Of a DNA stretch of 41,802 nt, positions 22,316 to 31,666 are shown in pieces; the first letter of the stretch is position 1; every line of letters begins with the position of its first letter. The position numbers and the translations under genes were made by a program. The notes below the pieces were generated by a model. The model searched no databases. It worked only from the letters and a program-made list of their open reading frames with translations, and had not been told where the DNA came from. This DNA comes from Deltaproteobacteria bacterium (GTDB lineage Bacteria; Desulfobacterota; Syntrophia; Syntrophales; UBA2210), in assembly GCA_026388515.1 (NCBI GenBank), contig JAPLJO010000007.1:1-41802 (forward strand), in the 5' to 3' direction.

Positions 22316-23203
22316 TTACTCCTTCTTCCGTGCGTCCGATCCCGCTTTTTTTACGTCGCCGAGGAAAAGCTTGATGATCGGCGATATCTCCGGGGGGTGC
22401 CAGTTCGTCTTCCGCGGATCTTCGTGCCACGTGAAGGGAAGATGAACCACCGTCCCCGGTTTTCGTGTCTCTTCAAATACCTGAAGGGCGCTCATGAGCA
22501 CTTCACGCTGACCCTTTATGTCATGGACCTCGCCGACCGGCCGCCCGAAGGGATACTCGATACCGGCGACACGGGGCATCCCCACCTTCCGTGCGAATTC
22601 GGGGACAGGTGTCAGTATCACCGTGACGATGCCGTCTGCCTCGAGGAAACGCGCAACCAGTCCCACGGACTGGCAGCAGAGCGGTCAGGCCGGCGTGAGA
22701 AGGACTGCGTCCACCCCTTCGGCGTGCATACGGGAGGCCACCTTCGGCATGGTTTCTTCGAGAAGTATCGTGGAGTTGAGTTGAAATCCGTAATAGGAAT
22801 AGGAAGTCGGCGCGAGCCTGCCGATGACGCCTTCTTTTTCAAACTCGCGGAAACGCGCAAGAGGCAGTATCACATTCATATCCTCTTTAATAAGGGCCGT
22901 GTTGACATGGAGGTGATTGACATCGATGTTCGCCTCCGTGGCGTCCCTCGGGATTTCTCGGTGCGTCGGATCACCCCAGAGCGGCTCTTTTTTCTCCCGC
23001 TCCATATCGAAGGGGGGATCCGATTTCATGCTGATGCCCGCTGACGTCATGAGGGAGAATGTCAGCTTCGAAAGGGGTCTGGTAAGGGTGGTCCATGGTA
23101 TATCACCGCTGAACTCTTCCGCGGGGATGTCCTTTTTAATCCAGGCACTGAGCGAGGGCGGCATGAAACGAAAGCCGTCGACGATTCTCGCGTAATTCTG
23201 CAT
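22316..23203 (-). CDS. GrdB-like selenoprotein (glycine/sarcosine/betaine/proline reductase family) with in-frame UGA
   Basis: The track shows two ORFs in the same frame (22685-23212 and 22316-22666) parted only by one TGA at 22685-22687. Read through as selenocysteine they give 295 residues with Sec at 173, in the context LLTPA-U-PLCCQSVGLVARF, the U-P-x-C-x-Q form known in GrdB-like proteins outside amino-acid fermenters. Eleven bases after the UGA comes CCAGTCC-GTG-GGACTGG, a 7-bp hairpin at the spacing of bacterial SECIS elements. The C-terminal half continues ADGIVTVILTP and GMPRVAGIEYPFGRPVG. The ATG at 23203 has GGAGG. The family cleaves C-N bonds reductively in Clostridia; here it leads an acyl-CoA gene set and its reaction is unknown. 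SelA, SelB and SelC are not in the window. Confidence 0.88.
22656..22687 (-). promoter_or_regulatory. SECIS-like hairpin with UGA codon
   Basis: On the minus strand: TGA, 11 bases, then CCAGTCC GTG GGACTGG. The apical loop begins with GU as in known bacterial elements, and the 11-base gap equals that of E. coli fdhF as I recall it. Folding was done by eye. Confidence 0.75.
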
Positions 23204-23260
23204 GATGAGCACCTCCGTTCGATGATGTGTGTGGACGTGGGAGAAGAGAACAACGATGGA

Positions 23261-23368: not shown

Positions 23369-23385
23369 ATGAACGTTCATTCAGT
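23364..23385. promoter_or_regulatory. Perfect 22-bp palindrome, likely TetR operator
   Basis: ACTGAATGAACGTTCATTCAGT is its own reverse complement. It lies between the divergent selenoprotein and TetR genes. The core ATGAnnnnTCAT-like layout recalls sites of TetR-type fatty-acid regulators. Autoregulation is the natural reading. Confidence 0.8.
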
Positions 23386-23428
23386 GACAGGCAGCGGATT
23401 GCCGCCGTCATGTTCCAGGGTTCAGGTC

Positions 23429-24082
23429 ATGGTTGTGAAGAATAATGGAAGAAAAATCGGCAAAGATGAGACAAGGGAGAAAATCATCCGGGCCGCAAAG
23501 GATCTCTTCAGCAGAAAGGGGTATCACAAAACCTCGGTGCGGGACATCGTTCGGGCCGTCGGGATGTCAGCGGGGTCGGTGTATGTTCATTTTAAAAACA
23601 AGCAGGACCTTTTTGAGGAAATCGCCACACGCAACGTTGAAGAACTCCGGATCATGCTGAAGGAAAAGAGACGCACAAGCCGCTCCGACGACATTCCGGA
23701 AAGACTGGAAAAGGTGAGGGAAACATACAACATCTTCTTTGATTATGTCGACGAACATGCCAATCAGTTCCTTACGATGATTCGCGGAGGCTTCGGCGTG
23801 GACGAACGGGTCGATGAAGATACCTGGCGCTGGTTCAGTTCATTTGCGAACGACCTTGCCGAAGATTTTCAGATATGGAAGCGCAAAGGAATAATCAGCG
23901 GATTCAATCCGGTGCTTCTGGGACATGTAGTTGTCGGCATGTCGAACCAGGTCGCCCATTGCTATCTCGTGGAAAAAAAGTTCACCCGCGAAGAAGCCAT
24001 TGAAGCGCTCATTACGATCAACAGGGCCATATTTTTCAGCTATCTCACGAAGAAGGGGAAAGAAAAACTGGGCATACAGTAA
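23429..24082 (+). CDS. TetR-family transcriptional regulator
   Basis: 217 residues. The N-terminal helix-turn-helix is clear: TREKIIRAAKDLFSRKGYHKTSVRDIVRAVGMSAGSVYVHFKNKQDLF. The C-terminal half is a variable ligand-binding helical domain ending in TKKGKEKLGIQ. The track start at 23369 lies inside the palindrome; the ATG at 23429 follows CAGGG at fair spacing. It is transcribed away from the selenoprotein gene and leads the rightward operon with acyl-CoA dehydrogenases, so an acyl-CoA or the free acid is the likely inducer. I expect repression of both arms through the palindrome. Confidence 0.9.
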   Translation: MVVKNNGRKIGKDETREKIIRAAKDLFSRKGYHKTSVRDIVRAVGMSAGSVYVHFKNKQDLFEEIATRNVEELRIMLKEKRRTSRSDDIPERLEKVRETYNIFFDYVDEHANQFLTMIRGGFGVDERVDEDTWRWFSSFANDLAEDFQIWKRKGIISGFNPVLLGHVVVGMSNQVAHCYLVEKKFTREEAIEALITINRAIFFSYLTKKGKEKLGIQ

Positions 24083-24119: not shown

Positions 24120-25622
24120 ATGGTACTGAGCCACGAATTCAAGGTGCTTCTGGAGAGGGAGCCCAAATTCATCGACATCATGTGCAGCCTCGAGGCGACG
24201 GCGCGTCAGCCGAAGGGGATAATCAACGAGACGAAGGAAGTGGTGGCCATCGCACGGAAATTCAACGACGAGGTGGTGAGACCCTACGCGCTCGAACTCG
24301 ACAGGCTTAGGACGGAAGACCCCGAATTTCTTCCCTGGGAGTTCGTGAAAAAGGCGAACGAGTGGGGCTTCTATACCATGTGGATTCCAAAAATCTTCGG
24401 GGGGAAGGGCTACTGCATGCCCTCCATGTCATATTTCATCGAAGAAATCGGATCCGCCTGCCTGGCCATGGCGAATCTCATCGGCGTCCACTACCTCGGC
24501 TTTGCCACACTCACCGCCACCTGGAACATGCGCCTCGTGAACAGGCTCGCGCGGGAGGTGGCGAAAGGCGAGAAGACGGGTGCTCCCTGCCTCATTTCAC
24601 TTGCCATAACCGAACCGGGCGCGGGTACCGACGTGGAAGAGATAGACCTCATCGACAAGGGAAAAATCACCTGTCACGCCGGAAAGGTGAAAGGCGGGTA
24701 CGTGGTAAACGGGAGCAAGGTATTCATCTCGAACGGCCATATCTCCGCGTGGCATATGCTGATCGCCTATAGCGATCTGAAACGTCCCTCGGATACGCCT
24801 GTGGTGCTCGCTGTTCCCACCGGTGCGAAGGGGTTTTCCTTCGGACGCCAAGAGCACAAGATGGGCCAGAAGGGATGTCCCGCCAGCGAGCTTATCTTCG
24901 AGGACTGTTTCATCCCCGATGAACTGGTCGCCATGGATGATGAGCAGTGCCGCGGCCTCTCCCGGAAAACACGGGAGGCAACCATGCAGGTGATTGATTA
25001 CGTAGTCTCCGTCACCCGGGCCGGTGTCGGCGCCTTCGGCACGGGTGTCGCCCGCGGGGCCTTCGAGGAGGCGCTAAAATTTGCCGGTGAGACGGAGGTG
25101 GACGGGAAACTCCTCATCAACCACGAATGGGCGCAGTGCATGCTTGCAGAGATGTACAAGAACGTGACCATCGCCCGGCTCTGCTACGTGGAAACCAATT
25201 ACGCCAACGGCATGTACGGCTTTTTCAAGACCCTCCAGATGAAACCCATGTACTACTGCGCGAAGATGCTGCCGAAGTTTTACATAGACCTTGTCATTGC
25301 CCCCCTGATGAGTAAGCATTTTATGACAAAACTCATGCGGAAAATTGGTCTTGACGGACAGAAAGATGAAGAAATTCACCGCACCTCGGGATGGGCGTCC
25401 ATCGCGAAGGTGGTAGGAACCGATGCAGGCATCAGGAACTGCCAGCTCGCGCTGGAGATGATGGGTCAGGCGGGGCTGCGCCAGGATAGAGTGGCGGAGA
25501 AACACCTCAGGGATTCCAAGCTTCTCCAGATATACGAAGGCACGAACCAGCTCAACCGCCTGAATATTTTCAAGTGCCTGATTGCGCGGTCCTGTCCGCA
25601 GGCCGTGGTCTTCGATGAATAG
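24120..25622 (+). CDS. Acyl-CoA dehydrogenase
   Basis: A 500-residue flavoenzyme that introduces a 2,3-double bond into an acyl-CoA. Motifs are AITEPGAGTDVEEIDL near 161-176, KVKGGYVVNGSKVFISNG, and the C-terminal RDSKLLQIYEGTNQLNRL, whose Glu is the usual catalytic base. It is longer than the typical 380 residues, with an insert before the C-terminal helices. The track start at 23931 overlaps tetR; the ATG at 24120 follows GGAGGGG. Electrons would go to ETF, not encoded here. It is 37 bases after tetR and 13 bases before the second dehydrogenase. Confidence 0.92.
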   Translation: MVLSHEFKVLLEREPKFIDIMCSLEATARQPKGIINETKEVVAIARKFNDEVVRPYALELDRLRTEDPEFLPWEFVKKANEWGFYTMWIPKIFGGKGYCMPSMSYFIEEIGSACLAMANLIGVHYLGFATLTATWNMRLVNRLAREVAKGEKTGAPCLISLAITEPGAGTDVEEIDLIDKGKITCHAGKVKGGYVVNGSKVFISNGHISAWHMLIAYSDLKRPSDTPVVLAVPTGAKGFSFGRQEHKMGQKGCPASELIFEDCFIPDELVAMDDEQCRGLSRKTREATMQVIDYVVSVTRAGVGAFGTGVARGAFEEALKFAGETEVDGKLLINHEWAQCMLAEMYKNVTIARLCYVETNYANGMYGFFKTLQMKPMYYCAKMLPKFYIDLVIAPLMSKHFMTKLMRKIGLDGQKDEEIHRTSGWASIAKVVGTDAGIRNCQLALEMMGQAGLRQDRVAEKHLRDSKLLQIYEGTNQLNRLNIFKCLIARSCPQAVVFDE

Positions 25623-25635
25623 AAAGGAGGCTCCC

Positions 25636-26757
25636 ATGTTAACGTACACGAACCCCGAATTGAAACCCTTTGAAGAACTGGCCGGTCAGTTCGCCCGTAA
25701 TGAACTTGCTTCCGGAAGAGAAGAACACGATAACTATCCCTTCGGTCCCTTTTTCCACGGCGTCCTCGCGCGGGCCCATGAAGCGGGATTTCTCGGGATT
25801 ATCCTTCCGGAACACCAGGGCGGTATCGGCCAGGGAACGGGAGCGCTCTGCGTGATACTCGATTCGATAAGCCGTGCCGACGCGAGTCTGGCGGGGATAC
25901 TCTTCACCACGGCGCTTGCCCAGCAGATTCTCATGGAAGCCGGCGCGTTCGATGCGATCAGAACAATTACGGGTGGCGCTTCAAAGGCGGAAGAGGCGCT
26001 CATTGCGTTTCCCGCGTTTGCCAATCCTTCGGAACTTGCACCCTCGGTCTTCGCAAAGAACGAAGAGGGGCGCTACACCCTCTTCGGCACCTGCGACTAC
26101 CTCGTTCTCGGCGGGCTTGCCCGATACGGCCTGATACCTGCGCGTGTACACGGCCGGAAAGGATACTCCTTCTTTATAGTGGACCTTGCCGCACCGGGAG
26201 TGACGAAAAGCGGCCCCGTCGTCAGCCTCGGTTTTCACGCCTGTCCCGCCGTCGACGTGAAAATCAGGGACGTGGACGGAACAATCGCGGGGAGCGAGGG
26301 GGACGGCGCGGTGCTTTTTGAACGGGCGGCGGAAAAAATGCATATTGCCGCCGCGGCCATTGCCTGCGGGATTATGAAAGGTTCCTTTGTGGAGGCACTT
26401 AGCTACGCAAAAGAGCGCTTTCAGGGAGGGCGTGAGATTGTGAAGTGGTCCGAGGTCCGGATGATTCTTGCGAATATGGCAGTGAAAGTCGATGTCGCCG
26501 ACATGACCCTCGCAGGAGCGTGCCGGGCGGCTGAAGAGAAACATCCCGGGTGGGAAACAAAATCCCGCGCCGTCGCGATCCGCATCCAGGATGATGCCTG
26601 TGAACTTACCACCGACGGCATCCAGGTCCTTGGCGGGTATGGGTATATGAAGGACTACGGGCAGGAGAAAAGATTCCGGGATGCCAAGCAGGTTCAGGCG
26701 CTTCTGGGCATGGCACCGATGAAGAAGCTGAAGTATTTTGAAAAAGTGGCGGAGTGA
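25636..26757 (+). CDS. Acyl-CoA dehydrogenase-like protein lacking the usual catalytic Glu motif
   Basis: 373 residues with the acyl-CoA dehydrogenase fold: GILPEHQGG-type N-terminal helix region (IILPEHQGGIGQG), a beta domain, and DGIQVLGGYGYMKDYGQEKRFRDAKQ near the end. Where other members continue QIYEGTNxIQR, this one reads QALLGMAPMKKL, so the common catalytic Glu position is lost. It could use another residue, or be a partner of the first dehydrogenase, as in known heteromeric steroid acyl-CoA dehydrogenases. The ATG at 25636 has AAAGGAGG. The usual Gly/Thr/Asp-rich substrate loop (EPGAGTD) is also not seen. Confidence 0.88.
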   Translation: MLTYTNPELKPFEELAGQFARNELASGREEHDNYPFGPFFHGVLARAHEAGFLGIILPEHQGGIGQGTGALCVILDSISRADASLAGILFTTALAQQILMEAGAFDAIRTITGGASKAEEALIAFPAFANPSELAPSVFAKNEEGRYTLFGTCDYLVLGGLARYGLIPARVHGRKGYSFFIVDLAAPGVTKSGPVVSLGFHACPAVDVKIRDVDGTIAGSEGDGAVLFERAAEKMHIAAAAIACGIMKGSFVEALSYAKERFQGGREIVKWSEVRMILANMAVKVDVADMTLAGACRAAEEKHPGWETKSRAVAIRIQDDACELTTDGIQVLGGYGYMKDYGQEKRFRDAKQVQALLGMAPMKKLKYFEKVAE

Positions 26758-26865: not shown

Positions 26866-27699
26866 ATGCCCAATGCAGTCGTCACAGGTGCAGCCTCGGG
26901 CCTCGGAAGGGCGTTTGCCCTTGCGCTGGCGAGAAAGAACTGGCGCGTGCTCGTCGCCGATATCAACGCCGTCGGCGCGGCGGAGACGCTGGAGTTGGTG
27001 AAAAAAGAAGGCGGGAGCGGCGCCACCTTCCGGTGCGATGTGGCGTCGCTCGATGATGTCAAGGCCATGGCAGCATTTGCCTTCGGCGAGTGGCAGCGGG
27101 TGGACCTTCTCATAAATAATGCCGGCATCGCCGTCACCGGTACTGTCGGGGACGCGCCCATCGAGGACTGGCGATGGATTTTCAGCGTGAACTTCTGGGG
27201 CGTGCTCCACGGGTGCCATGTGTTCGTACCGAAGATGAGAGAGCAGGGAGGCGGTCACATTATTAACGTGGCGTCCGCGGCGGGTATCGTCTCGCTTCCC
27301 GAGATGCCGGCCTACAACGCCACGAAGGCGGCGGTGATATCTCTGTCGGAGACGATGAGATGCGAGCTTGCCGCGCACCGTATCGGCGTCACCGTGGTGT
27401 GCCCCTCGTTTTTCCGAACCAACCTGGCGAAGGGCCTTCACTGCACCGACGAGTTTCAGAAAACGTTCGCCATCGTGGCGATGGAAAACGGCAGGATCTC
27501 CGCGGATGAGGTCGCCAAGCGGGCCCTGCGGGCCATGGAGAAAAACAGACTCTATGCGATACCCCATGCCTCGATTCGTCTCCTGTGGTTCATGAAGCGG
27601 GTGTCGCCGGCCATGTTTTACCGGAATATGGCGTTTATGAACAAGAGCAGCCGGTTTCGGATGGTGCTTCTTGCACTGGCCCGTCGCGGGCTTACATAA
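26866..27699 (+). CDS. Short-chain dehydrogenase/reductase
   Basis: 277 residues of the classical SDR family. The cofactor motif TGAASGLGRAF is at about 7-17, NNAGIAVTG near 85, the catalytic Ser in VASAAGIVS, and YNATK with the Tyr and Lys. Asp in VADINA after beta-2 suggests NAD(H). Together with the dehydrogenases and thiolase it probably oxidises a 3-hydroxyacyl-CoA or a ring hydroxyl. The ATG at 26866 has AAGGAG; a GTG one codon before is the track start. The C-terminus is longer than average and rich in Met and Phe, perhaps for membrane contact. Confidence 0.9.
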   Translation: MPNAVVTGAASGLGRAFALALARKNWRVLVADINAVGAAETLELVKKEGGSGATFRCDVASLDDVKAMAAFAFGEWQRVDLLINNAGIAVTGTVGDAPIEDWRWIFSVNFWGVLHGCHVFVPKMREQGGGHIINVASAAGIVSLPEMPAYNATKAAVISLSETMRCELAAHRIGVTVVCPSFFRTNLAKGLHCTDEFQKTFAIVAMENGRISADEVAKRALRAMEKNRLYAIPHASIRLLWFMKRVSPAMFYRNMAFMNKSSRFRMVLLALARRGLT

Positions 27700-27724: not shown

Positions 27725-28984
27725 ATGGCTAAAGACGTGTACATCATCGGTCTCGGCATGATAAAGTTCGGCAAATACCTCGACAGAAGCATCAAATCCC
27801 TCACCGGTGAAGCGCTGAAGCTTGTGCTCGATGACTGCGGCCTTTCGGTGGATGATCTCGAGGCCGCCTGGTTTTCCAACTCATCATGGGGAATGAGCTC
27901 CTTCCAGCACTGTATCAGGGGGCAGGTCGCCCTCTCCGCGAACGGCCTCGAAGGTGTACCCGTCACGAATGTGGAGAACGCCTGCGCGGGAGCGTCAACG
28001 GCCCTTCACGGCGCCTGGACTGCCGTGAAAGCGGGGCTCTATGACTGCGCACTTGCCATCGGCGTGGAAAAACTCAACGATCCCGACCGGGCAAAGGTCA
28101 TGATGGGGTTCATCACGGGAACCGACGTGGAAGTCACCATGGAGATGATGGCGAAGTTTCAGAAAGAAGAGCAGGAGAGGCGCGAGCGCGAAGCCCGCGA
28201 GAAAGGCATCGAGCTTTCGAAGGAAAAAGCGGGCGGCCATTCTGCGTTCATGGACCTTTACGCCATGGGGGCGCGCACGCACATGAAGCAGTATGGGACA
28301 ACCCAGCGGCAGCTTGCCTGCATCGCCGCGAAGAACCACAACAACTCGGTATTGAATCCCCTTGCCCAGTACACTTTCCCGATGACCGTGGAAGAGGTGC
28401 TGGCCGACCGGGAGGTGGCCTACCCGCTCACCCGCGCCATGTGCGCGCCCATAGGCGACGGCGCCGCGGCGGCGATCGTCTGTAGCGGGCGCTTTCTGAA
28501 AAAGGTGGAGAGAAAGAGGGCCGTACGGATTCGCGCGTCCATCCTCCAGTCGGGAAACCGGGTGAGGGAAAGCGATATCACCGCCCGCACATCGCGCATC
28601 GCCTATGAAACGGCGGGTCTCGGCCCCGGTGACATATGTGTCGCAGAGGTTCACGATGCCACCGCGTATGGTGAGCTCTTCCAGACGGAACAGGTCGGAT
28701 TCTGTCCCGTGGGTGAGGGCGGGCCTTTTGTGGAAAGCGGCGCGACGGCGCTCGGCGGAAAGATTCCCGTCAATCCCAGCGGCGGACTGATTGCACGGGG
28801 CCATCCCGTGGGCGCCTCGGGGCTCGCGCAGATACACGAACTGGGGACCCAGCTCAGGGGTGAGGCGGGGAAGCGTCAGGTGGAAGGCGTCAGGATTGCT
28901 CTTGCTGAAAACGGCGGCGGTTTCCTCGGGCAGGCGGAAGCGGCCATGGTGATTCACATACTGGAAAAGCATAGCGTTCGATGA
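27725..28984 (+). CDS. Thiolase, SCP-x type
   Basis: 419 residues of the lipid-transfer (SCP-x) thiolase group. The nucleophilic Cys is in VENACAGASTAL near 90, the EVHDATAYGEL motif near 315 and the His in GLIARGHPVGASG near 355, ending ENGGGFLGQAEAAMVIHIL. It would cleave a 3-ketoacyl-CoA with CoA, or run in the condensing direction. An AAGGAG ribosome site precedes the ATG. An insert rich in Glu/Arg/Lys (about 140-165) is unusual and looks like an exposed helix. This group often acts on branched or sterol side-chain substrates; that is a family hint, not proof. Confidence 0.9.
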   Translation: MAKDVYIIGLGMIKFGKYLDRSIKSLTGEALKLVLDDCGLSVDDLEAAWFSNSSWGMSSFQHCIRGQVALSANGLEGVPVTNVENACAGASTALHGAWTAVKAGLYDCALAIGVEKLNDPDRAKVMMGFITGTDVEVTMEMMAKFQKEEQERREREAREKGIELSKEKAGGHSAFMDLYAMGARTHMKQYGTTQRQLACIAAKNHNNSVLNPLAQYTFPMTVEEVLADREVAYPLTRAMCAPIGDGAAAAIVCSGRFLKKVERKRAVRIRASILQSGNRVRESDITARTSRIAYETAGLGPGDICVAEVHDATAYGELFQTEQVGFCPVGEGGPFVESGATALGGKIPVNPSGGLIARGHPVGASGLAQIHELGTQLRGEAGKRQVEGVRIALAENGGGFLGQAEAAMVIHILEKHSVR

Positions 28985-28997
28985 AAAGGGGGATTGT

Positions 28998-29729
28998 ATG
29001 GCACTGCAAAGAGACATGGCACGGGAGGAGTTTGTTGAACGTCTCAAGTTTGAGTTTACCGAAACGGAAAAAGTAATTCTGCAGAGGAGAAGCGTCCGGC
29101 TCTATAAGAAGGAACAGGTGCCGGAATTCATGGTGAAGCGAATGCTGGAGGCGGGCCGTTTCGCACCCTCGGCGGGGAATTCCCAGCCCTGGAAGTTCGT
29201 CGTCGTGCGGGATCCGCAGTTGATCGACGGCATGACAAAAACGACCGTTGATCTGTGCAAGTTTTTCCGCGCGACGACAGACTACACGCGGCCGGGCTTC
29301 GGCTGGATGAGGCCTTCGGTGAAGTTTTTCACGCGGCTGCTCCCCAATGACCTTCATCCCGTTCCCTTCGGAGCGGTGTCGCTGATTGCCCAGGGAAAAC
29401 TCTCGGTCTGGCACGGGGCCCCCACGGTGATTCTCATTTTCAAGGATGTGCGCGGTGTCTCGAATCCGGATCTCGACTGCGGCATCGCCGGCCAGAACAT
29501 GGTACTCGCCGCTCACAGCATGGGGCTCGGCACCTGCTGGGTCGGATTTGCGCGGACCGCCTTCGAGTACGCCGCGAAGTGGCGGAGGTATTTCGGCATC
29601 GAGTTTCCCTTTAAATTCGCCAACAGCCTTGCCGTGGGGTGGCCGAAAGGTAAGCCGGACGGCATGGTGGAACGGCAGACCCACGCAGTCGACTGGTACG
29701 AAAGCGGCCAGCGACGGACCATTTACTAA
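28998..29729 (+). CDS. Nitroreductase-family flavoprotein
   Basis: 243 residues with the nitroreductase FMN fold: QRRSVRLYKKEQVP near 29, GRFAPSAGNSQPWKF near 53, and the C-terminal AGQNMVLAAHSMGLGTCWVG near 163. It lies 14 bases after the thiolase and 11 bases before a ferredoxin with which it is probably co-translated. Such pairs may reduce enoyl or nitro groups with electrons from ferredoxin; the substrate is not known. Confidence 0.88.
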   Translation: MALQRDMAREEFVERLKFEFTETEKVILQRRSVRLYKKEQVPEFMVKRMLEAGRFAPSAGNSQPWKFVVVRDPQLIDGMTKTTVDLCKFFRATTDYTRPGFGWMRPSVKFFTRLLPNDLHPVPFGAVSLIAQGKLSVWHGAPTVILIFKDVRGVSNPDLDCGIAGQNMVLAAHSMGLGTCWVGFARTAFEYAAKWRRYFGIEFPFKFANSLAVGWPKGKPDGMVERQTHAVDWYESGQRRTIY

Positions 29730-29740
29730 GGAGGATCGCC

Positions 29741-30058
29741 ATGGGAAAGATGACATTCCTGGAAAAAATCCGTATTCCCACCTACAACGACCCAAAGCAG
29801 GTAACGCCCGGCGAGGTCGACTTCGACAACGGAAAGTGCACCGGGTGCGGCATTTGTGTCGAAGTATGTCCCGCTGACTCGCTCGTGATGGAGGACAAAA
29901 AAGCGCGGATGAAGGCTGCGGCGGAAAACCAGTGTATGTTCTGCGGCTGCTGCGTAGCCATATGTCCCGCCGGTGCCGTCAGCATGAAGTCACCCTTCAA
30001 ATGCACCCTCTTTTTCAAACCCATCGACTACGGCGAACCGAAACCGCCGCGGTTGTGA
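29741..30058 (+). CDS. 2[4Fe-4S] ferredoxin
   Basis: 105 residues with two classic clusters, CTGCGICVEVCP and CMFCGCCVAICP, each CxxCxxCxxxCP. N- and C-terminal extensions flank the core. AAGGAGG precedes the ATG. Likely electron carrier for the adjoining nitroreductase-like protein or for other reductases of the locus. Confidence 0.92.
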   Translation: MGKMTFLEKIRIPTYNDPKQVTPGEVDFDNGKCTGCGICVEVCPADSLVMEDKKARMKAAAENQCMFCGCCVAICPAGAVSMKSPFKCTLFFKPIDYGEPKPPRL

Positions 30059-30097: not shown

Positions 30098-31666
30098 ATG
30101 AGTAAGGCAGCAACGTGGGCGTCGGAACTTGAAGCGCAGGCATCGAAACTCGGCGACAGGCCGTTTCTCTATGTGGTGTATCAGGACCGTTACATCAGTT
30201 TCAAGGAAATGGACGACAACGCAAACCGTCTCGCCAATTTTCTTCTTTCCCTCGGTGCGGGACCGGGGAAGGGCATCGCGCTCCTCATGAACAACTCGCC
30301 CCAGTTTCTTGATGTCTTCTTCGGCATGCAGAAAATAGGACTGTATGCGAACACGGTAAATACGGGCCTCAAGGGAGACGGCCTTGCTTTTATCGTTGAC
30401 AACAGCGATGCAGGGTATCTCATGGTGGATTATGACCTCGTCGAGCTTTTTCAATCGGTCTGCGACAAAACCCCCGGTATCAAAACAATAATCGTCAACA
30501 CCCTTGAGGCGCCTCCCGGCTATACCGTGCCGGTGGGCATGCTCGATCTAAGAGCCGCCTACGGCCCTGAAGTGTCGGCGGTGAAGCCTTCCATCGAGTT
30601 CGATGAGGGGGGCGTGCTCCTTCTCATGTACACCTCGGGGACTACGGGGCTTCCGAAGGGGGTTGTCTCGCGGTACAACAACAACATGGTCGACAGAATC
30701 CGCCCGCTTGCCCTTTTCACCATGACCCCCGATTCGGTCTACTACACGGCGCTCCCGCTCTTTCACGGGAACGCCCTCTTCATCACCACGACGAACTCGC
30801 TCATCGCCGGGTGCACCATGGCGCTCTCCAGGAAATTTTCCGCGAGCCGGTTCTGGGATGAAATATGGCAGTCGAAGGCCACCACCTTCAATACCATCGG
30901 CGCCATCATTCCGATTCTCATTAAGCAGCCGCCGAACCCCCACGAACGCGACCACCGGGTCGGCAGGATACTCTCGGCGGGATGCCCCGCCGACATGTGG
31001 GAGGCCTTCGAAACACGCTTCAACATCAAGATATGGGAGGGCTACGCCGCCATCGACGGGTCGGGGCTCATCATGAATTTCGGCGACGGCCCGAAGGGTT
31101 CCATCGGCAAACCGGTAAACTCGCAGATACGGCTCGTCAATGACAGGGGGGAAGAGGTTACGACAGGCGAGCCGGGAGAACTGCTCTTCTACGTGGCGAA
31201 GGACCGCACCGACAGGGTGGAGTACTACAAGAACCCCGAGGCAATGGAGAAAAAGACCAAGGGGGAGTGGGAGTATACCGGCGACCTCATGTACCAGGAC
31301 AAGGACGGCTATCTCTACTTCGTGGGGCGCGCCACCGATTCCATGAGAAGGCGCGGCGAGAACGTCTCCGCCTACGACGTGGAGCAGGCCATCATGAAGC
31401 ATCCCGCCGTCCTTGAATGCGCCGTCTACGGTGTTCCCTCGGAACTCACCGAGGACGACATCATGGCATCAATCCGCCTCGTCGAGGGGCATACGCTCAC
31501 GCCCCGGGGACTCCTCGACTTTCTCGAGGACAAGCTCGCGAAGTTCGCCACACCCCGCTATGTCAGAATCGTCGATGATTTCCCGAGAACGGAAACCTTC
31601 CGGGTGAAGAAAAACGAACTCAAGGCGGTGGGCGTCACGGCGGATACCTTTGATGCGGAAAAGTAA
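30098..31666 (+). CDS. Second AMP-forming acyl-CoA ligase (CaiC/BaiB-like)
   Basis: 522 residues of the ANL superfamily. The motif LLLMYTSGTTGLPKGVV is near 170, WEGYAAIDGSG near 315 in place of the usual YGxTE, GDLMYQDKDGYLYFVGRATD near 390 and a terminal Lys in RVKKNELK. It resembles carnitine- or bile-acid-type ligases, but the identity of the acid cannot be read. It is the last gene of the rightward arm. GGGGAGG lies before the ATG. Confidence 0.9.
   Translation: MSKAATWASELEAQASKLGDRPFLYVVYQDRYISFKEMDDNANRLANFLLSLGAGPGKGIALLMNNSPQFLDVFFGMQKIGLYANTVNTGLKGDGLAFIVDNSDAGYLMVDYDLVELFQSVCDKTPGIKTIIVNTLEAPPGYTVPVGMLDLRAAYGPEVSAVKPSIEFDEGGVLLLMYTSGTTGLPKGVVSRYNNNMVDRIRPLALFTMTPDSVYYTALPLFHGNALFITTTNSLIAGCTMALSRKFSASRFWDEIWQSKATTFNTIGAIIPILIKQPPNPHERDHRVGRILSAGCPADMWEAFETRFNIKIWEGYAAIDGSGLIMNFGDGPKGSIGKPVNSQIRLVNDRGEEVTTGEPGELLFYVAKDRTDRVEYYKNPEAMEKKTKGEWEYTGDLMYQDKDGYLYFVGRATDSMRRRGENVSAYDVEQAIMKHPAVLECAVYGVPSELTEDDIMASIRLVEGHTLTPRGLLDFLEDKLAKFATPRYVRIVDDFPRTETFRVKKNELKAVGVTADTFDAEK

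Follow-up and report, generated by a model that had tools for sequence, protein, structure and literature searches.

Do two neighbouring acyl-CoA dehydrogenase (ACAD) genes, the second of which lacks the catalytic motif, encode two enzymes or the two halves of one? The question is raised by a contig assigned to a Deltaproteobacteria bacterium of the order Syntrophales (GenBank assembly GCA_026388515.1, contig JAPLJO010000007.1), of which we analysed positions 1 to 41,802; this whole stretch of DNA is referred to below as the window. On its forward strand, a long chain, P0001 (24120–25622, 500 aa), is followed by a short chain, P0002 (25636–26757, 373 aa), with a gap of 13 nt between the stop of the first and the ATG of the second and a strong Shine-Dalgarno site before both open reading frames. 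An earlier note, made by reading the sequence, had contrasted QIYEGTNQLNR in the first protein with QALLGMAPMKKL in the second, reported that the second has no EPGAGTD loop, and proposed that the two might form a new heteromer. Both readings of the sequence hold at these positions. From the distribution of FAD-site residues described below, we consider it very probable that P0001 and P0002 are the subunits of an obligate alpha-beta ACAD, most likely alpha2beta2 with two FADs, in which the long chain would be the catalytic alpha subunit and the short chain a FAD-completing, catalytically inert beta subunit.

Motifs, domains, and predicted structures

Both proteins belong to the ACAD superfamily, and in a genome annotation both genes would pass as plain 'acyl-CoA dehydrogenase'. 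The ACAD N, M, and C domains of Pfam were all found in P0001; in P0002 the N and C domains scored above the cut-off and the M domain was undetected, though the predicted fold is complete. With residue numbers counted off printed alignments, P0001 carries the motif ITEPGAGTD, with the TEPGAGTD loop at T164–D171, a VFIS strand at 201–204, and the catalytic Glu473 within the YEGT of its second motif. Three positions that usually serve the FAD of a neighbouring subunit are changed in it: T325 stands for Arg, E446 for Gln, and Q450 for Gly. P0002 retains these residues as R261, Q330, and G334, has FANPSE in place of TEPxAGxD with the loop deleted, and reads LLG-MAP at the YEGT position, where L357 stands in the place of the catalytic Glu. 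Its Met235 occupies the alternative catalytic position on helix G (T255 in MCAD, Glu in IVD and LCAD).

The long chain also has an N-terminal extension of ~29 residues and, in its C-terminal domain, an insert of ~52 residues (residues 367–418; positions 25218–25373, forward strand) that was delimited by alignment and is predicted to be helical by AlphaFold2. The insert was present in every long homologue inspected, divergent ones included, and ordinary ACADs do not have it. A membrane helix was considered for this segment and rejected, its hydrophobicity being merely moderate (KD19 at most 1.09). In one long homologue (L042:3806–5290), the C-terminus runs out of frame past the insert, through a frameshift or an assembly error, and the adjoining short chain is intact. 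Single-chain AlphaFold2 models gave an ACAD fold for both proteins, with a pLDDT of 86 for the short chain and 79 for the long chain. Profile and fold searches of the PDB, examined for a heteromer as the nearest relative, returned homomeric MCAD/SCAD enzymes first for both chains, and the top Foldseek matches were of this type. The sole steroid heteromer chain in these lists came from Tcur3481-Tcur3483, at rank 39 in the Foldseek search with the short chain.

Residues of the FAD site in long and short chains

In human SCAD, F152, L154, S155, and T187 of one subunit hold the isoalloxazine ring and G160, S161, T364, and E396 lie at the FAD ribityl/pyrophosphate, while R297, Q365, and G369 are supplied by the adjacent monomer (PMC13027082). 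In IVD, residues of two adjacent monomers coordinate each FAD (PMC12369846). We tabulated the corresponding residues in 47 long and 49 short chains and, from the window's genome, in 30 further ACADs, matching columns to SCAD residues via motifs (ER..FG; QxxGGxG) and not by superposition; in this table, L133 repeats L002, and L042 is the long chain with the frameshifted or misassembled C-terminus.

The Arg of the SCAD R297 position was found in 49/49 short chains, 0/47 long chains, and 28/30 of the other ACADs. The Gln of the Q365 position was likewise present in every short chain (49/49) and in no long chain (0/47), where it is Glu or Asp throughout, and the Gly of the G369 position in 48/48 short and 0/47 long chains. 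This last column is imperfectly diagnostic, given that a divergent long chain outside the table, from the second pair of L180, does have the second Gly (LMGGDGI). On the catalytic side the distribution is the opposite one: the Glu at YEGT was present in 46/47 long and 0/48 short chains, and the TEPxAGTD loop in 46/46 long chains, with a deletion there in 49/49 short chains. Since either chain lacks what the other has, the losses are reciprocal, as expected of a composite site and unlike random decay. The missing catalytic residues of P0002 are due neither to chance nor to sequencing error, because a pair with identical residue losses recurs in dozens of independent genomes.

In the enzyme that we propose, the alpha subunit (P0001) would bind the substrate and the isoalloxazine ring via its TEPGAGTD loop and VFIS strand, and Glu473 would abstract the alpha-proton. 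The beta subunit (P0002) would be non-catalytic, giving R261, Q330, and G334 across the dimer interface to hold the ADP half of the FAD of the alpha subunit, which no longer has its own set. An alpha2beta2 tetramer would then hold two FADs and two active sites, the FADs being shared between unlike subunits. We infer the physical complex, its stoichiometry, and its FAD count from the sequences. Either chain assayed alone would probably turn out to be a dead or flavin-free protein.

Another reading, which seems to us very unlikely, gives the short chain catalytic activity of its own, with an unusual base, and makes the pair two distinct enzymes that serve a single pathway with successive or isomeric CoA esters as their substrates. 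It draws on the fact that certain ACADs place the base elsewhere, such as LCAD with its helix G Glu (PMC11153573), and on several ordinary ACADs of the window's genome that have no Glu at the YEGT position. Yet when an alternative catalytic Glu, which the earlier note had named as counter-evidence, was sought at one further position, helix G, it was found in 0/49 short chains, which have Met (Met235 in P0002), Leu, Phe, Tyr, or Trp there; this rules out a short chain with an alternative helix-G Glu. The 47 long chains have Thr or Ser at this position and no Glu either. Moreover, the loop that holds the isoalloxazine ring is deleted in all short chains, and therefore no flavin would be seated there in the usual way.

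Improbable as well, if slightly less so, is a long chain that works by itself as a homomeric dehydrogenase, accompanied by a short chain that is just a decayed paralogue or moonlighting protein travelling along with it. All residues for proton abstraction and for the isoalloxazine ring are indeed present in the long chain, and homomeric MCAD/SCAD are the closest matches to both chains, in sequence as in fold. Against this stand the trans-FAD Arg and Gln, lost throughout the long chains and invariant throughout the short ones. Decay would also not leave R261, Q330, G333-G334-x-G336, and the YMKDYxQEKR stretch invariant in short chains across phyla, as we observed. A short chain that merely travels along is further at odds with the co-inheritance of the two genes, to which we return below.

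Comparison with steroid-type heteromers

In the heteromeric ACADs of steroid degradation, the Glu is found in one chain only and FAD lies at the alpha-beta interface, with two active sites per alpha2beta2 tetramer (PMC8399759; PMC11153573). In the fused enzyme CasC, FAD binding requires the N-terminal half (PMC8399759). Steroid-type pairs from an actinobacterial genome, picked via its IpdE2 gene, were put through an identical residue table as a positive control. The control alpha chains kept SEPxxGxD and the helix-G Glu (NER in most, FER in one) and were without the Arg and Gln. The control beta chains retained the Arg together with all or most of the H/QxHGG stretch and had neither the Glu nor the loop. 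A fused chain (L177) combined the two, its N-terminal half following the beta pattern and its C-terminal half the alpha pattern. The comparison with known heteromers that the earlier note had suggested thus gave the same reciprocal pattern in the control pairs as in the long and short chains. Calibrated in this way, the residue test spots such heteromers from sequence.

Distribution, adjacency, and co-divergence

The window's genome (G000, 2.68 Mb) encodes three further long/short pairs, with the genes side by side in each. One of them (L002) shares 56% and 52% identity with the window chains. The other two (L001:3245–5850 and L004:2636–5211), at about 31% and 28% identity, are divergent, show the same reciprocal residue pattern, and each have a nearby nitroreductase that carries fused 4Fe-4S domains. 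We also observed that the genome has a very high density of ACADs, with 45 N-domain matches. Among them is a PimCD-like pair (L013:2374–4731, contig C142) that shows a reciprocal FAD-site pattern too, which brings the probable number of heteromeric ACADs in the genome to at least five. In another adjacent ACAD pair (L003:2468–4986, contig C125), the catalytic Glu is missing from both chains at both of its known positions (WMGGKQ; LCGVGA).

When species genomes were scanned with the two closest short chains, 16 orthologous loci (L031–L046) were found at 46–86% identity; the matches after these dropped to 31% and were ordinary ACADs. The hosts are Syntrophaceae, Smithella, and Deltaproteobacteria MAGs, three Actinomycetota MAGs, and one Spirochaetes MAG, and the pair closest to that of the window, at 91% and 86% identity, is in a Syntrophaceae MAG, a group to which the window's host probably belongs. 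A long chain adjoins the short chain in 16/16 of these loci. In the three Actinomycetota MAGs the gene order is swapped to short-long, and adjacency has therefore outlasted a rearrangement.

In an even phylum sample of 395 genomes, the short chain was found in 21 genomes and the long chain in 22. In G158, a short chain of 56% identity begins directly behind the long chain and is cut off by the contig end after 108 residues, and because of this truncation we count the two chains as co-occurring in 22/22 genomes. Homologues that act alone, the other kind of counter-evidence foreseen in the earlier note, were not seen in this sample: 0 genomes had a short chain without a long one or a long chain without a short one. 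This 22/22 co-inheritance is the observation that speaks against a short chain merely travelling along. Copy numbers match within genomes (3/3 in G311 and 2/2 in eight others), and the long chain adjoins the short chain at 30/31 short loci, the exception being G134, where the two are on different contigs.

Across 41 pairs, the distances among long chains were strongly correlated with those among short chains (Mantel r = 0.89), and 0/10,000 permutations reached this value (largest 0.45). As r is inflated partly by shared species history, we compared paralogous pairs within genomes. The choice of which of two long chains lay closer to a long chain from outside agreed with the corresponding choice between their short chains in 242/269 cases, and 12/14 quartets agreed, in comparisons that are not independent of one another. 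Agreement was weak in the window's genome (20/30) and in G030 (8/13). Taken together, the paralogue comparison supports cognate pairing of long and short chains.

Relation to known enzymes and origin of the pair

The steroid degraders' alpha2beta2 enzymes (ChsE4-ChsE5, ChsE1-ChsE2, that is FadE26-27 and FadE28-29, IpdE1-IpdE2, Scd1AB, and Tcur3481-Tcur3483) resemble the window pair in being encoded by two adjacent genes, with the catalytic Glu in the alpha chain only (PMC8399759; PMC11153573). They hold the isoalloxazine ring on alpha and the ADP side of FAD on beta (PMC8399759; PMC11153573), a division that the residues predict for the window pair as well. They differ in that their alpha Glu is at helix G (NER), whereas that of the window pair is in the YEGT loop, in having no counterpart of the ~52-residue alpha insert, and in their hosts, which are mostly aerobic steroid degraders as opposed to Syntrophales-like anaerobes whose genomes carry several pairs. 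PimC-PimD, the large and small subunits of pimeloyl-CoA dehydrogenase (TIGR03204/TIGR03203), are a large/small ACAD pair like ours, but the PimC-like alpha chain of L013 has its Glu on helix G, unlike the window alpha, and falls in one clade with the steroid alphas. P0002 scored 44 bits against pimD_small (cut-off 653), and P0001 had no match to pimC_large. Fused ACADs of the CasC/FadE34 type share the arrangement in which one half has the Glu and the other is required to bind FAD (PMC8399759), in a single chain where the window pair has two genes. Homotetrameric MCAD and SCAD share the fold, the YEGT base position, and the motif set of the alpha chain, and gave the best PDB matches, but carry on one chain both halves of the FAD site that the window pair would divide between two.

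The NCBIfam equivalogs were also tried as assignments, including pimC/pimD, cyclohexane-1-carbonyl-CoA dehydrogenase, and IpdE2, and were rejected, as P0001 and P0002 fell far below every cut-off; none of the curated families searched covers the lineage of the pair. A literature search for the long/short pair in Syntrophales found no report. Judged by sequence, the pair therefore has the same architecture as the steroid and PimCD heteromers, yet it is a member of neither family, because its alpha base is not at the steroid position and its scores are below the PimCD cut-offs. Of the earlier proposal of a new heteromer, the heteromer is favoured by the reciprocal degeneracy of the FAD site, co-inheritance, and matched copy number, while the novelty has to be narrowed. 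The two-part ACAD design is already known from steroid degraders, and what is new here is a lineage with a YEGT-loop base, an insert, and anaerobe hosts, not a principle.

The pair might still be a steroid/PimCD-type heteromer by descent, if there had been one ancient alpha-beta ACAD in which the Glu subsequently changed place between helix G and the YEGT loop. Such a reading bears on where the pair came from, leaves its mechanism untouched, and can stand beside the alpha-beta explanation; we regard it as possible, if somewhat short of probable. The reciprocal pattern is shared with the steroid type, and AU tests failed to reject trees in which the long chains were constrained to join the steroid alphas (p = 0.355) or the short chains with the steroid betas (p = 0.719), the latter tree even scoring better. 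In a free quick tree, however, the long chains formed a clade (SH-aLRT 100) apart from the steroid/PimC alpha clade (100), and the short chains fell apart from the steroid/PimD beta clade (99). The different site of the catalytic base and the lack of the alpha insert in the steroid type also argue against common descent. A more tentative suggestion, which we think rather unlikely as a whole, is that the pair represents a third, independent lineage of split ACADs from an MCAD-like ancestor in anaerobes, not from stock with a helix-G Glu, with its own insert, nitroreductase/ferredoxin replacing ETF, and several pairs per genome for bulky substrates. If the origin were independent, the family would be a natural replicate of a homotetramer splitting into complementary halves.

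Gene neighbourhood

The genes around the pair are all on the forward strand unless stated otherwise. Directly upstream is a TetR-family regulator (23369–24082), which is also found upstream in L031, L035, L038, L039, and L045. Downstream are a short-chain dehydrogenase (SDR; 26866–27699), probably the 3-hydroxyacyl-CoA dehydrogenase of the same module, an SCP-x/lipid-transfer-type thiolase (27725–28984), a nitroreductase-family protein (28998–29729; the version beside L001 and L004 is the 4Fe-4S-fused one), a two-cluster 4Fe-4S ferredoxin (29741–30058), and an AMP-binding acyl-CoA ligase (30098–31666) that would activate the substrate. Four of these are conserved neighbours, recurring beside orthologues, those of Actinomycetota included: the SDR most often, and the thiolase, nitroreductase, and ligase in about half of the loci or fewer, frequencies that are lower bounds as some loci end at contig ends.

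Together, these genes would form a module that shortens CoA esters in the manner of beta-oxidation, with activation by the ligase, dehydrogenation by the pair, a later oxidation by the SDR, and thiolysis by the SCP-x thiolase. The substrate class is probably a bulky, branched, or unusual acid, a guess that takes steroid side chains, pimelate, and dicarboxylates as its models (PMC12543098). We would also guess that the ferredoxin or nitroreductase may take the electrons. The presence of several pairs per genome in syntrophic-type anaerobes suggests that complex acids are oxidised anaerobically by a module that has so far gone unrecognised.

Two further features of the neighbourhood were observed. 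By eye, the thiolase has ENGGG near its C-terminus at the usual site of the second catalytic Cys, and because of this replacement it may be a non-standard thiolase or a retro-aldolase-like enzyme. On the reverse strand, at 22316–23212, a PrdB/GrdB-like reductase gene has an in-frame TGA at residue 176 (U-P-L-C-C). Since the genome encodes SelB and tRNA-Sec, the gene probably specifies a selenoprotein, which an ordinary ORF caller would break into two.
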